Shown here piece by piece: positions 13,663-55,157 of a stretch of DNA of 64,000 bases. Origin of the DNA: Desulfocicer vacuolatum DSM 3385 (GTDB lineage: Bacteria > Desulfobacterota > Desulfobacteria > Desulfobacterales > Desulfobacteraceae); contig NZ_FWXY01000002.1 of NCBI RefSeq assembly GCF_900176365.1, positions 124,001 through 188,000 on the forward strand, written 5' to 3'. Positions within the stretch are counted from its first letter, which is position 1, and the number at the start of each line of letters is the position of its first letter. Below the pieces are notes generated by a model, which searched no databases, had not been told where the DNA came from, and saw only the letters and a program-made list of their open reading frames with translations. The translations under genes and the position numbers were made by a program.

Positions 13663-13846
13663 CTCAACTTTCGGGCTTCATTTCAAAGCCGGCATTTTTA
13701 AATGTACCAATGGGGTCAGTGTGCCGACGGGGTCAGGCTTTTGTTATTGATGTTATCGACCAAGGCCTTTGCCAACGAAAAAAGCCTCGATAATGTCAAT
13801 AACGAAAGCCTGACCCCACCACGAAATGCGAACACCGAAAGTTGAG
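13663..13846 (+). mobile_element. 184-bp MITE-like element, family 1, copy 1
   Basis: Begins CTCAACTTTCGG and ends with its exact inverse CCGAAAGTTGAG, giving 12-bp terminal inverted repeats. A near-palindrome at 13729-13817 (31-bp arms starting GGGGTCAGGC) fills the right half. A 7-bp direct duplication CTGTAAA flanks it at 13656-13662 and 13847-13853. No open frame of note; too small for a transposase. Other copies are at 18121, 38973, 52693 and 54927. Confidence 0.92.
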
Positions 13847-16491: not shown

Positions 16492-16747
16492 TAACTGCCA
16501 TGGGCAGGCCGTATTCTGATCCGGCTCTGCCCACAACAAAACTTGAAATACACCCCTGGTTTGCGGAGTATTTCATATAAACGGGTATCTCCTGCCTGAC
16601 ACGGCAAATATAGGGTCGTAGCCGCGGAGCCAAATGGTATTATACCGTATACCGCCGCCCCCCGACGGGCAATGGGCCCGGACCGGAACTGTAGACAGCT
16701 CAATTGTCCGGTTCCTATTGCCCGTCGGGGGGCGGCTCTGCTGAGGT
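16492..16747 (+). repeat. Composite long-hairpin repeat, family 3, copy 3
   Basis: Complete unit with head module (16492-16540), middle block (GAAATACACCCCTGG ... GCGGAGTATTTCATAT), GGTATTATACC with a short local duplication, hairpin at 16654-16736 and truncated tail ending CTGCTGAGG. Arms carry the consensus GACGGG and CCCGTC. It occupies most of the gap between leuC and the HesB-like gene. Confidence 0.9.
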
Positions 16748-16792: not shown

Positions 16793-16831
16793 AAAAGGGC
16801 AATCCCTTTATCTAAAAGAAATTGCCCTTTT
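16793..16831 (-). terminator. Terminator of the HesB-like selenoprotein gene
   Basis: Arms AAAAGGGCAAT (16793-16803) and ATTGCCCTTTT (16821-16831) form an 11-bp stem. Read leftward, the hairpin is followed by a T-run, as expected for a rho-independent terminator about 60 bases after the minus-strand stop codon. Confidence 0.7.
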
Positions 16832-16888: not shown

Positions 16889-17206
16889 TCAGGAACAGCA
16901 GGAACCTTTTGTTCCGCAGCTGCCACAGTCTGAACCGCCCAGATCAAGTTTGGATTCCAGGCTGAATCCCATGCCTGTGAAATCAATTTTGATCATTTTG
17001 GCCTGCTGCATGAAAGTTTTGTCCACAACAAGCTTATAACCTTTCACATCGTAGGTGTCATCGCTGTCCTTAGGCTCATCCAGAGCCATTGCAAGAGATG
17101 GTCCACCTCAGCCGCCGGAGTTTAAAAAAATTCGTATGGGAGAAGGCTCCCTGCCACTGAAATATTCTTCCAACTGCGCTTTGGCAGCATCTGTCATTTC
17201 AATCAT
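16889..17206 (-). CDS. HesB/IscA-like selenoprotein with in-frame UGA
   Basis: Fe-S carrier-like protein of the HesB/IscA family, 105 residues including selenocysteine. The ATG at 17206 has a strong ribosome site (AAGGAGCATTTATA). Codon 33 is TGA at 17108-17110, in the motif LNSGGUGG, exactly where the family has its first conserved cysteine (GGGCSG). The frame continues with normal coding character to a natural stop, ending DCGSCGTKGSCCS, which is cysteine-rich like the family C-terminus. A SECIS-like hairpin lies 20 bases after the UGA. Selenocysteine-containing HesB-like proteins are a known bacterial selenoprotein group. A conventional gene caller would report only 16889-17089. Client proteins are unknown. 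Confidence 0.9.
17073..17087 (-). promoter_or_regulatory. Bacterial SECIS element of the HesB-like gene
   Basis: In the transcript, GGCTC and GAGCC form a 5-bp stem around the loop TGGAT. The stem begins 20 bases after the UGA, and a G is in the second loop position, both matching the known requirements for SelB-dependent bacterial SECIS elements. It lies in coding sequence. Confidence 0.75.
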
Positions 17207-17688
17207 TATAAATGCTCCTTGTTTGTTTGGTGTCGATCAGCTCCTATTTGCCGAATTGTTTTTAACTTAACCATATGGGGATGACTTGTCAAGAAATCAG
17301 ACCCTCTAATTTCAGGCATACTTCATTTTCCGGTTTACACTTTTCAGAAAGATATACCCATTTCCCGGGGAAATTTAATTAAAAAGTGTAAATTACTTTT
17401 GAATTGTATGAAAGATGCCTAATTTTAAAGAAAATTTTCCCCGGGCTTTCCTCTACCTCCCCATTTTAAAGTCATGGCGAAAATAAGGCCATGGAACCGG
17501 GTATTGACTTAAGTCACATGTTTTGCTAAACCCTCAATCATTTCCACACTGAAATTTCCCGGTCTTTCCCTTCCCATACAGGGCAAGCGTCGCGGGCGGT
17601 ATAATAGCATTTTGAATATTCGTCGTGTTTGCCATAACATGACCGCTATATAAAACCCCTAACACTTAACTCAAAAAGGACAAAGCAA
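17207..17688. promoter_or_regulatory. Divergent regulatory region between the HesB-like gene and ndk
   Basis: About 480 A/T-rich bases without a gene. A long imperfect inverted repeat is visible: AGGCATACTTCAT ... TTTACACTTTT near 17312-17346 faces AAAAAGTGTAAA ... ATGAAAGATGCCT near 17381-17421. A TTGACT hexamer is at 17504-17509 and a perfect TATAAT at 17600-17605, both pointing towards ndk. The stretch 17592-17655 resembles an inverted, decayed piece of the family 3 repeat (GGCGGTATAATAGCATTTT ... AATATTCGTCGTG), so the ndk promoter may be repeat-derived. Confidence 0.45.
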
Positions 17689-18105: not shown

Positions 18106-18120
18106 TTTTAAAATAAATAA

Positions 18121-18304
18121 CTCAACTTTCGGTGTTCGCATTTCGTGTTGGGGTCAGGCTTTCGTTATTGACATTATCGAGGCTTTTTTCGTTGGCAAAG
18201 GCCTTGGTCGATAACATCAATAACAAAAGCCTGACCCCGTCGGCACACTGACCCCATCGGTGCATTTAAAAATGCCGGCTTTGAAATGAAGCCCGAAAGT
18301 TGAG
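18121..18304 (-). mobile_element. 184-bp MITE-like element, family 1, copy 2 (inverted)
   Basis: Same element as at 13663, in reverse orientation, with terminal CTCAACTTTCGG and CCGAAAGTTGAG. The flanking 8-bp direct repeat ATAAATAA is at 18113-18120 and 18305-18312. It separates ndk from its downstream terminator. Confidence 0.92.
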
Positions 18305-18314
18305 ATAAATAAAA

Positions 18315-20198: not shown

Positions 20199-21248
20199 CT
20201 ATATTAAAGTCACCTTACCGCAGGTGTGATCTTTGGTCACCTCCCCCACCAGGGCAGCAGCAATCCCCCGGTCCTGCATGGCCATGAGGCAATTTTGGGC
20301 ATCCTTTTTTTTCACACTCACAAGAAGCCCCCCGGATGTCTGGGGATCAAACATAAGATCCAGAACAATTTTATCCATTTGGTCGGGGATCACCATGCCC
20401 GGCTGGCAGTATCTCCGGTTTCGGAAGGCCCCCCCGGGCACCATGCCCATGGCGGCCCACTGTGCAGCGTTGTCAATCACCGGCACCGCCTGGGTGAAAA
20501 GAGAAATTTCCTTTCCCCCGCCCCGGGCCATTTCCAGCAGATGTCCTGCCAGGCCAAAACCGGTGACGTCGGTGCATCCCCCCACATCAAACCCGGCCAT
20601 GACTTCGGCCGCATCCCGGTTCAGGGTGGACATGATATTTACCATTTTCCGGGTGGTGGCAGCATCGGCAAGCTTTCCTTTCAGTGCTGTGGCCACAATA
20701 CCGGTTCCCACGGGCTTGGTGAGAATGATCTGATCTTTGATGCGAATACCGTGGTTGGTGAGCACCCGGTCCGGGTGCACCACACCGGTGACGGAAAGTC
20801 CATATTTAAATTCAGGATCATCCACGCTGTGCCCCCCCACCAGGGTGGCGCCGGATTCGTGGATCTTGTCAAGCCCTCCCTGCAGGGTCTTTTGTAAAAC
20901 ATCTTCTCCAAAATCAGCACTGGGAAAACAGACAATGTTCATGGCAGTCAAGGGGGTGCCGCCCATGGCATAGACATCACTTAAGGAGTTGGCCGCTGCA
21001 ATCCGACCGAACTCATAGGGATCATCTGTGACCGGAGTTAAAAAATCCAGGGTCTGGATCAAGGCAGTGTCCTTGTTGATGCGAAAAACACCGGCATCAT
21101 CACTGGTTCCCAGCCCCACAATAAGATCGGGATGGCTTTTTGCTTCAAGCCCGCCCACAATGCGATCCAGTGCCCCTGGATCTATCTTGGCCGCTCAACC
21201 GGCCGCCTTTACCTTTTCGGTGAGCCTTATGATCTCTCTGGAAGTCAT
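20199..21248 (-). CDS. selD: Selenide, water dikinase, itself a selenoprotein
   Basis: Makes selenophosphate, the selenium donor for selenocysteine and selenouridine. The full gene starts at ATG 21248 (AAAGGGAAATAATTC upstream) and gives 349 residues including selenocysteine. The N-terminus reads LTEKVKAAGUAAKIDPG: codon 18 is TGA at 21195-21197 in the place of the catalytic cysteine, three residues before the essential lysine K21. Downstream motifs include GLGTSDDAGV, DFLTPVTDDPYEFG and GGCTDVTGFGLAGHLLEMA. A SECIS-like hairpin follows the UGA. Selenoprotein SelD is known in several lineages and acts as its own Sec requirement. A standard caller would begin at the internal GTG 21158 and lose the active site. 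It follows pgeF by 28 bases. Confidence 0.95.
21164..21182 (-). promoter_or_regulatory. Bacterial SECIS element of selD
   Basis: In the transcript GATCCAG and CTGGATC form a perfect 7-bp stem with loop GGGCA. It begins 12 bases after the UGA at 21195-21197 and has G in the first loop positions. The geometry agrees with SelB-binding hairpins; the stem starts slightly nearer the UGA than usual, with the loop at 19-23 bases. Confidence 0.8.
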
Positions 21249-37997: not shown

Positions 37998-38972
37998 ATG
38001 AATCATATGAAATTTCATGTAGACCGACTTTCACAGATAAAAGCGCTTGTGGTGGGAGATGTCATGCTTGACCGTTATATATGGGGAGATGTAGACAGAA
38101 TTTCCCCTGAAGCGCCGGTTCCTGTGGTAACGGTGGGAAAAGAAAACCATGTCCTGGGCGGCGCAGGTAATGTGGCAGCCAACATGGCAGGCCTGGGAAT
38201 CCAGGTATGCCTGGTTGGAATATGCGGGCATGATGAATCTGGAAAAATCTTTCAGAACCTCTGTCAAAACAACGGCATTATGCCCCGGCTCATCATTGAC
38301 CAAGACTATCCCACCACGGTTAAAACACGTATAATGGCAAGAAAACAGCAATTATTCAGACTGGACCGGGAAAAAATCCAACCCCCTTCCCATACCCTTG
38401 CACAAAAAATCATAGCTCAGGTTCAAAAAGCAATGGCATCCGTTGATGTGGTAATCCTGTCAGATTATGCAAAGGGCATGTTTCTGTGTGAACAATTGTG
38501 CAGGGATATCATCCTGACGGCAAGAGAATGCAAGGTGCCATGTTTTGTGGATCCCAAGGGGAAAAACTGGGAAAGGTATACAGGAGCCTCCTTTATAACC
38601 CCCAACACAATGGAACTTGCCGCTGTATCCCAGCTTCCCATGGAAAAAGATAACGACACTTTAATTGCGTCAATAACAGATGTCAGGGATCAATATGATA
38701 TTCAGTGCTTATTGTTAACCCGGGGGGAAAAGGGTATGTGCATTGCAGATAAAGCATCTGCCCCATTATTTATTTCCACAGCGGCACAAGAAGTGTATGA
38801 TGTTTCCGGTGCCGGGGACACCGTGATTTCAACATTTGCAGCCAGCATTGCCATGGGTATGTCCCCGGATGATGCTGCCGGTGTTGCAAATATTGCAGCC
38901 GGTGTGGTTGTGGGAAAGGTGGGCACCCAGCCCATCTGTATTTCCGAACTGATTTCCGCTTTAGAACAATAA
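37998..38972 (+). CDS. D-glycero-beta-D-manno-heptose 7-phosphate kinase (HldE N-terminal type)
   Basis: PfkB-family kinase that makes heptose 1,7-bisphosphate for ADP-heptose. N-terminal VVGDVMLDRYIWGDVDRISPEAPVPVV contains the RfaE domain 1 signature (residues about 18-44), GGAGNVAANMAGLG binds substrate, and DVSGAGDTVISTFAASIAMG holds the catalytic aspartate. The adenylyltransferase half is a separate gene at 22143-22637, so HldE is split. An alternative ATG at 38007 is possible. A family 1 element has inserted exactly at its stop codon. Confidence 0.93.
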   Translation: MNHMKFHVDRLSQIKALVVGDVMLDRYIWGDVDRISPEAPVPVVTVGKENHVLGGAGNVAANMAGLGIQVCLVGICGHDESGKIFQNLCQNNGIMPRLIIDQDYPTTVKTRIMARKQQLFRLDREKIQPPSHTLAQKIIAQVQKAMASVDVVILSDYAKGMFLCEQLCRDIILTARECKVPCFVDPKGKNWERYTGASFITPNTMELAAVSQLPMEKDNDTLIASITDVRDQYDIQCLLLTRGEKGMCIADKASAPLFISTAAQEVYDVSGAGDTVISTFAASIAMGMSPDDAAGVANIAAGVVVGKVGTQPICISELISALEQ

Positions 38973-39156
38973 CTCAACTTTCGGGCTTCATTTCAAAGCC
39001 GGCATTTTTAAATGTACCGATGGGCTCAGTGTGCCGACGGGGTCAGGCTTTTGTTATTGATGTTATCGACCAAGGCCTTTGCCAACGAAAAAAGCCTCGA
39101 TAATGTCAATAACAAAAGCCTGACCCCACCACGAAATGCGAACACCGAAAGTTGAG
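38973..39156 (+). mobile_element. 184-bp MITE-like element, family 1, copy 3
   Basis: Terminal CTCAACTTTCGG/CCGAAAGTTGAG. The 8-bp duplication AACAATAA lies at 38965-38972 and 39157-39164; the left copy contains the last codons and stop of the heptose kinase gene, so the insertion left the gene intact by regenerating its stop. Confidence 0.92.
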
Positions 39157-52643: not shown

Positions 52644-52692
52644 CTTCTTTCCTGATATGTTATAAATCATAATAGTACGTAGTCGATATTAA

Positions 52693-52876
52693 CTCAACTT
52701 TCGGGCTTCATTTCAAAGTCGGCATTTTTAAATGTACCCATGGGCTCAGTGTGCCCACGGGGTCAAGCTTTTGTTATTGATGTTATCGACCAAGGCCTTT
52801 GCCAACGAAAAAAGCCTCGATAATGTCAATAACGAAAGCCTGACCCCACCACGAAATGCGAACACCGAAAGTTGAG
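52693..52876 (+). mobile_element. 184-bp MITE-like element, family 1, copy 4
   Basis: Same termini; flanked by the 7-bp duplication ATATTAA at 52686-52692 and 52877-52883. It has a few private substitutions (for example GTGCCCACGG where others read GTGCCGACGG). It sits upstream of the leftward GT2 gene and downstream of the heptosyltransferase. Confidence 0.92.
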
Positions 52877-52922
52877 ATATTAAAATGTCGTCACTCATCA
52901 GTTCTCCAACAGGGATAAAAAT

Positions 52923-54798: not shown

Positions 54799-54926
54799 GA
54801 TTATCAACCTAAATACTTGACTCTTTTATTCCAGGGGTATACGCATTTTCCCTGCCCATCACACACCCCATTGATTTCATTCAATTTGTGTCCCATCGGT
54901 TCAATTCAAACTATTTTAATAAATAA

Positions 54927-55110
54927 CTCAACTTTCGGGCTTCATTTCAAAGCCGGCATTTTTAAATGTACCGATGGGGTCAGTGTGCCGACGGGGTCAG
55001 GCTTTTGTTATTGATGTTATCGACCAAGGCCTTTGCCAACGAAAAAAGCCTCGATAATGTCAATAACGAAAGCCTGACCCCACCACGAAATGCGAACACC
55101 GAAAGTTGAG
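54927..55110 (+). mobile_element. 184-bp MITE-like element, family 1, copy 5
   Basis: Termini CTCAACTTTCGG/CCGAAAGTTGAG, with 7-bp duplication TAAATAA at 54920-54926 and 55111-55117. It fills most of the gap between kdkA and lptG; the remaining bases (54799-54926) show no gene. Confidence 0.92.
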
Positions 55111-55157
55111 TAAATAAAAGAGTTGAATCTCCAATCGAAAAAATGGAAATGCGTTCG

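Follow-up and report, generated by a model that had tools for sequence, protein, structure and literature searches.

The hesB-like gene described here lies on the minus strand of a 64,000-nucleotide stretch of the Desulfocicer vacuolatum DSM 3385 genome (hereafter the window, at its full length), and its codon 33 is an in-frame UGA that, from comparison with homologous sequences, can be read with near certainty as selenocysteine (Sec). On the basis of the same comparison and of a structural model, it is almost certain that a SECIS hairpin recodes UGA 33, that the resulting Sec replaces the first conserved cysteine of the A-type proteins, and that the protein is predicted to fold like IscA. The product is, by its profile matches, a further member of the published HesB-like selenoproteins (NF038090, motif UxGP) and not a new kind of protein; what is newly added is the pattern of a lone carrier and the counts of Sec/Cys switches. 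Taken as a whole, the proposal that this is a Sec form of an A-type (IscA/HesB-fold) Fe or Fe-S carrier, involving both Sec recoding and the binding and transfer of a cluster, appears to us probable, with considerable room for doubt.

HesB-like selenoproteins have appeared in surveys since 2005-2006 (PMC1242214, PMC1794560, PMC1914089), and an archaeal member, from Methanococcus maripaludis, was detected through mutagenesis and 75Se labelling (cited in PMC11097638). A 2026 review places these proteins, with the motif UxGP, under TIGR01911 (PMC13188914). Their function is described as "not clear" (PMC11097638) and "largely uncharacterised" (PMC13188914), and within the limited collection of literature searched no paper was found that assigns one, although the family was first published approximately 20 years ago.

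The hesB-like gene and its surroundings

The preliminary description of this DNA had reported a well-initiated frame at 16889-17206, with TGA as codon 33 in the context LNSGGUGG, and had named no strand. The frame is confirmed and its strand is minus, running from 17206 to 16889 and encoding 105 residues of the IscA/HesB type, with an ATG at 17206-17204 and a Shine-Dalgarno-like sequence, AGGAGC, both now located. The features of the gene are the following:

16889-17206, minus strand: hesB-like selenoprotein gene, 105 amino acids followed by a TGA stop
17214-17219, minus strand: Shine-Dalgarno-like AGGAGC, with a spacer of 7 nt to the ATG
17108-17110, minus strand: in-frame UGA, codon 33, near-certain selenocysteine of the UxGP motif
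17073-17087, minus strand: SECIS stem-loop GGCUC-UGGAU-GAGCC
16895-16927, minus strand: Cys-rich tail (Cys 94, 97, 103 and 104), at the low-confidence end of the model
16793-16831, minus strand: possible intrinsic terminator (weak), an imperfect inverted repeat 3' of the gene

Codon 33 (TGA at 17110-17108) stands in the context LNSGGUGGPS and is followed by 72 codons without a stop, up to residue 105; the product, of about 11 kDa at full length, ends in CGSCGTKGSCCS, after which two TGA stops stand in tandem (16891-16889 and 16888-16886). Since three relatives (L040, L041 and L090) terminate at the same residue but with TAA as their stop, the simplest reading is that the terminal UGA is a true stop. 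The closest named relatives of the window protein come from Desulfobacterium MAGs (L090, 79% identity; L040, 78%). The candidate terminator, with a terminator-like site at 16809-16794, is graded as weak because 2 sites were detected versus 1.1 in shuffled sequences.

A further long intergenic inverted repeat, with 23-nt arms (96%) and a 37-nt spacer, lies downstream of the gene at 16654-16736. In addition, the window carries a palindromic element of approximately 186 bp, whose ends are CTCAACTTTCGG... and ...CCGAAAGTTGAG, in five copies of 95-100% identity:

13663-13846: palindromic element
18120-18307: palindromic element
38970-39156: palindromic element
52689-52881: palindromic element
54924-55111: palindromic element

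Genome-wide, it is present in at least 40 places, at 97-100% over the whole or nearly the whole of a 130-bp core (40 of 184 candidates scored). With direct repeats of 7-8 bp, seen by eye beside three of the copies, the element has the look of a MITE with recent activity. At E 1e-4 the loci fetched from other genomes, including those of close relatives, gave no match.

The SECIS hairpin and the evidence for recoding

With the window counted in, the homologue set comprises 181 copies at 171 loci; since L074 and L174 are identical, 180 copies are distinct, 160 of them with TGA. The loci are not a random sample, being made up of the best 30 genomes of an NF038090 search, 80 close relatives, 60 stretches hand-picked from that search for spread across the family, and the window itself. 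One copy, L089, carries a suspected frameshift and was left out of the tail counts and of the tree. One Sec form (L065, 62% identical to the window protein) lies on a contig titled Spirochaetes bacterium, as a result of either horizontal transfer or misbinning.

At position 33, 161 of the 181 copies have TGA and 20 have a Cys codon (TGC in 15, TGT in 5), with no other codon observed, which is the Cys/Sec alternation that the preliminary description had proposed to look for among homologues. Bacterial SECIS elements are hairpins located shortly downstream of the UGA, with a G early in the loop. The hairpin of the window agrees with this consensus in both respects, as it begins 20 nt past UGA 33 and consists of a 5-bp stem closed by the loop UGGAU, with G at loop positions 2-3; the coordinates, distance and loop G originally given for it were all correct. 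Folded in isolation, positions 17070-17090 give a z of -3.96, with 0 of 200 shuffles equally stable, yet in a 49-nt fold the identical stem is obtained with a z of only -0.70 and 44 of 200 shuffles are equally stable. Folding energy is thus weak evidence when taken alone, and the case rests on comparative evidence. An Rfam scan of the window found no family at its gathering score.

All five pairs of the stem are kept in 158 of the 161 TGA copies versus 1 of the 20 Cys copies and, when only distinct 69-nt stretches are counted, in 155 of 158 versus 1 of 20; the exceptions among the TGA copies are L095 and L141, which lose one pair each, and L169, which loses two. One of the pairs joins the second base of an Ala/Val codon to the third base of a Glu codon and is C-G in 146 copies and U-A in 15. 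In the 15 U-A copies, which are the Val forms, GAA stands opposite in 14 and GGA in 1, and this swap, as read from the alignment, is a compensatory change that also alters the protein. Codon choice follows the same line: among Sec copies 98% have T as the last base of the Ala/Val codon, but 70% of the Cys copies have C there, and the adjacent Leu codon has a final G in all (100%) of the Sec copies versus 55% of the Cys copies. By these counts, the codon biases in the stem are the mark of selection on RNA, relaxed once Sec is lost. Codon usage at position 33 and retention of the stem together bear out the initial proposal that the gene encodes a selenoprotein.

Family, predicted fold and C-terminal tail

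The protein scores 116.5 bits against NF038090 (cut-off 85) and 33.1 bits against PF01521 (cut-off 26.3), with both matches spanning the UGA, so that its early assignment to the HesB/IscA type stands. Its match to TIGR01911 (HesB_rel_seleno) covers residues 2-76 at 31.7 bits and does not reach the cut-off of 66.35, and that to TIGR00049, at 40.7 bits, stays under the cut-off of 58.8. Because the cut-off of NF038090 is passed and that of TIGR01911 is not, the window protein is assigned to a second subfamily, to which TIGR01911 is homologous but distinct. The UxGP motif is present as UGGP at codons 33-36, with its in-frame UGA. Features shared with the HesB-like selenoproteins of the 2006 survey (PMC1794560) and of NF038090 (IscA_HesB_Se) include the in-frame UGA, UxGP, deltaproteobacterial hosts, Cys homologues and the occurrence of a fossil SECIS in a Cys form; the window gene is of the same kind, and is one member more.

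With the canonical carriers IscA, SufA and ErpA (TIGR00049, TIGR02011, TIGR01997, NF010147) the protein has in common PF01521, the predicted fold and the placement of Sec at the first conserved Cys: its U aligns with the Cys of GGC[SA]G in 13 of the 13 canonical carriers of the phylum that were compared, as the preliminary description had supposed. It differs from them in having Sec for Cys, a P after UxG and a tail without CGCG, and it falls under the cut-offs of all four profiles. An AlphaFold2 model built from 49 sequences has a mean pLDDT of 80.8, with weak spots at residues 31-40 (the Sec loop, mean 70) and 90-105 (under 50). The six top Foldseek matches of this model are IscA, cluster-bound IscA (1x0g) and SufA, with a probability of 1.00 and query TM values of 0.52-0.65. 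A profile search of solved structures retrieved the A-type chains 1nwb (3.2e-10), 1s98, 1r94, 2apn and 2d2a, so that model and profile both point to an A-type fold; the nearest of these chains, Aquifex aeolicus AQ_1857 (1nwb), has Cys, not Sec, at the residue in question.

The Cys-rich end that had been noted from the outset consists of Cys 94, 97, 103 and 104. At least three tail cysteines, with variable spacing, are found in all 20 Cys forms and in 157 of the 160 Sec forms (L089 left out), and CxxC is frequent in these tails. The canonical carriers compared have CGCG in 13 of 13 cases where the window protein has its own ending; 10 of the 13 have two tail cysteines, and a third is present in L190-L192. 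Sec and three Cys would therefore make four possible ligands, whereas 10 of the 13 canonical carriers have three, all of them Cys, and L190-L192 have a fourth. Three Sec forms that share one family code (L153, L154 and L163) have a single tail Cys, in an end of the form WSE.DLF.GTC.I, which argues that the tail is dispensable in some copies.

Exchange of Sec and Cys

A tree built on 193 rows, namely 180 copies plus 13 canonical carriers, and 103 columns leaves 85 of its 189 inner branches open, and the following counts are to be taken as estimates from a poorly resolved tree. Sec and Cys are exchanged 14 times, irrespective of direction; one traced parsimony reconstruction with a Cys root requires 15 changes (12 Sec-to-Cys and 3 Cys-to-Sec), and a Sec root costs 16 switches. 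For HesB-like proteins, the 2006 survey lists two Sec-to-Cys events in its Table 1 (PMC1794560). TGA and Cys copies occur together in 10 of the 171 loci (L012, L013, L014, L021, L034, L038, L039, L148, L152 and L179).

L142, which alone among the Cys copies keeps the stem intact, belongs to genome G206, in which the searches yielded no match to selA, none above the cut-off to selB, and a tRNA-Sec of at most 47.6 bits. That value is barely above the gathering score of 47 and close to the runner-up match in the D. vacuolatum genome (44.2 bits), whereas seven further genomes searched alongside G206 reach 72.6-76.9 bits. This looks like a recent Sec-to-Cys change accompanied by the loss of the Sec trait, which we consider likely from the gene content. 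In Desulfitobacterium hafniense, a HesB-like form with Cys has been described that retains a fossil SECIS (PMC1794560).

Selenocysteine machinery

The host has the genes required to decode Sec, with a tRNA-Sec of 75.8 bits (the second-best match in the genome being 44.2 bits), selB (380 bits), selA (609 bits) and selD (369 bits). The absence of selA, selB and selC, which the preliminary description had named as evidence that would count against a selenoprotein, is not observed: selA, selB and tRNA-Sec are all found. Nor did its other such condition arise, homologues lacking both Cys and Sec at the site, since all 181 copies have one or the other. The selD gene lies in the window:

20199-21248, minus strand: selD, selenide water dikinase (TIGR00476, 368.8 bits, cut-off 125)

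It has an in-frame UGA of its own at codon 18 (21197-21195), in GUAAK, and is thus itself a selenoprotein gene, located 3 kb from the hesB-like gene.

In the phylum, selA is above the cut-off in 355 of 395 genomes, and in 359 at E 0.001. At least five genomes, among the matches listed, have a TGA copy over the cut-off and no match to selA (G042, G069, G170, G272 and G388). All five have a tRNA-Sec of 72.6-76.9 bits; selB is above the cut-off in G069, G272 and G388, and in G170 and G042 it is not, the partial matches there being perhaps pieces of selB. We read these cases, on the strength of the other genes, as a missed or gapped selA. Outside the matches listed, seven more genomes (G095, G146, G200, G262, G300, G302 and G340) have an NF038090 match without one to selA, and one of them, G200, has a TGA copy.

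Carrier complement and gene neighborhood

In the host genome NF038090 has a single match, which is the hesB-like gene, and TIGR00049 has one (E 2.6e-7), which is taken to be the same gene. PF01521 gave zero matches, the hesB-like gene itself being missed; this search is therefore insensitive to a gene split by UGA, and TIGR00049 was used in its place. The hesB-like gene is thus taken, from these profile searches, to be the only A-type homologue detected in the genome, in which scaffolds are represented by four matches to NifU_N and one to SUFBD. Across the phylum, NF038090 is above its cut-off in 168 of 395 genomes, a profile that in control genomes also matches canonical carriers, for example in E. 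coli; 175 of the 395 have no match to it at all, which indicates that the protein is not required everywhere. TIGR00049 is above its cut-off in 20 of the 395; one of these (G293) is a Sec form, and three of the remaining 19 (G088, G357 and G376) are also above the NF038090 cut-off, so that 165 of the 168 family genomes are without a canonical carrier above the cut-off. Such absence holds at the sensitivity of TIGR00049, which in controls matched 8 of 14 genomes and found none in Synechococcus elongatus, which we take to possess A-type carriers. According to a 2009 survey, many Delta-Proteobacteria are without A-type carriers (PMC2682760), and truncation at UGA may explain part of that absence.

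The neighborhood analysis covered 1059 ORFs, up to four on each side of the best copy in the 171 loci, clustered by BLAST. The ORF caller is crude, as it selects the longest ORFs (in the window, an antisense ORF was chosen over ndk), and clusters were named by eye from leading residues only. The biggest cluster is present in 34 of the 171 loci, and the neighbors recognized (epimerase, thiamine pyrophosphokinase, nucleoside diphosphate kinase, FmdB-like zinc ribbon and macro domain proteins) look like order-level synteny. Among recurrent neighbors, no partner for Fe-S assembly or selenium was recognized by this crude inspection, which is weak evidence that there is none. One gene neighboring the hesB-like gene has a product of the aconitase/LeuC family. 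The proximity of selA to the hesB-like gene was set aside as a lead, being confined to L120-L123, which share one family code.

Proposed function and alternative explanations

We propose that Sec33 and tail cysteines 94, 97 and 103/104 would bind Fe or an Fe-S cluster, which could then be passed from scaffolds of the NifU/IscU or SufB type to apo-proteins, the protein thus doing here the job that IscA and ErpA perform elsewhere. The selenolate may allow ligands to exchange faster or make the site remain reversible, and the repeated Sec/Cys switches suggest that Cys is able to replace it. Binding of a metal or cluster is deduced here from sequence comparisons, and a purely redox role is possible. 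Several observations speak against the carrier reading: the missing CGCG tail, the varied spacing of its cysteines, the Sec copies with one tail Cys and the lack of recognized Fe-S neighbors. A disruption mutant of the M. maripaludis HesB-like selenoprotein that still fixed nitrogen (an unpublished observation cited in PMC11097638) also counts against it, as do the TIGR00049 score under the cut-off, the 175 genomes with no NF038090 match, and the lower certainty of the model at the Sec loop and the tail.

The main rival, which we judge unlikely but by no means negligible, is that of a redox protein built on the IscA fold, in which Sec33 and a tail Cys would form a selenylsulfide and the protein would act on thiols, peroxides or sulfur species, by reduction or repair, with no cluster involved. 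The frequency of CxxC in the tail would fit such a protein, as would the crude neighborhood result over the 171 loci, and a 2026 review presumes redox roles for most uncharacterized selenoproteins (PMC13188914). The retention of Sec beside one tail Cys in L153, L154 and L163 lends slight further weight, being easier to reconcile with a Sec-Cys pair than with a three-ligand site. However, the motif is UxGP, and neither UxxC nor CxxU; the fold and the position of U match a metal site, and at least three tail cysteines are retained in almost all Sec forms. A role in sequestering soft metals or metalloids such as mercury, arsenic or copper through Sec and the Cys tail is improbable: soft ligands abound in the tail, and for other selenoproteins Sec has been named as a residue that may bind metal (PMC13188914), but metal-resistance genes were not recognized by eye among the recurrent neighbors.

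Still less probable is the handling of selenium, in the form of delivery or storage for SelD or SelA, to which the vicinity of selD in the window and the position of selA two genes upstream in L120-L123 might be thought to point; the latter loci were chosen for a nearby selA and are thus biased, neither selD nor selA was seen by eye in the 33 neighbor clusters of at least five loci, and the Cys form L142 is maintained in G206, where no Sec machinery is evident. That UGA 33 could be a real stop, leaving a 32-residue fragment, a pseudogene or a sequencing error, accords with the fact that standard translation halts there, but is hardly credible in view of the conservation of TGA in 161 copies (160 distinct), of the stem in 158 of them and of the protein beyond.

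Implications

The carrier reading leads to a broader suggestion, offered tentatively and with more doubt than conviction, that in a large part of the phylum a selenium version may have taken the place of the A-type carrier and would bind an Fe-S cluster within one subunit, by Sec and three tail cysteines. To our knowledge, there is no demonstrated example of a natural carrier cluster with selenolate ligation. If the suggestion is true, surveys of annotated proteins that score such bacteria as carrier-less would have missed it, since the UGA truncates the annotation, and surveys of carriers in anaerobes can overlook genes with UGA in this manner. The lone A-type homologue, seen in most of the sampled genomes with the family, the repeated switching and the paired Sec and Cys copies would provide natural material for testing the ligation of Fe-S clusters by selenium.
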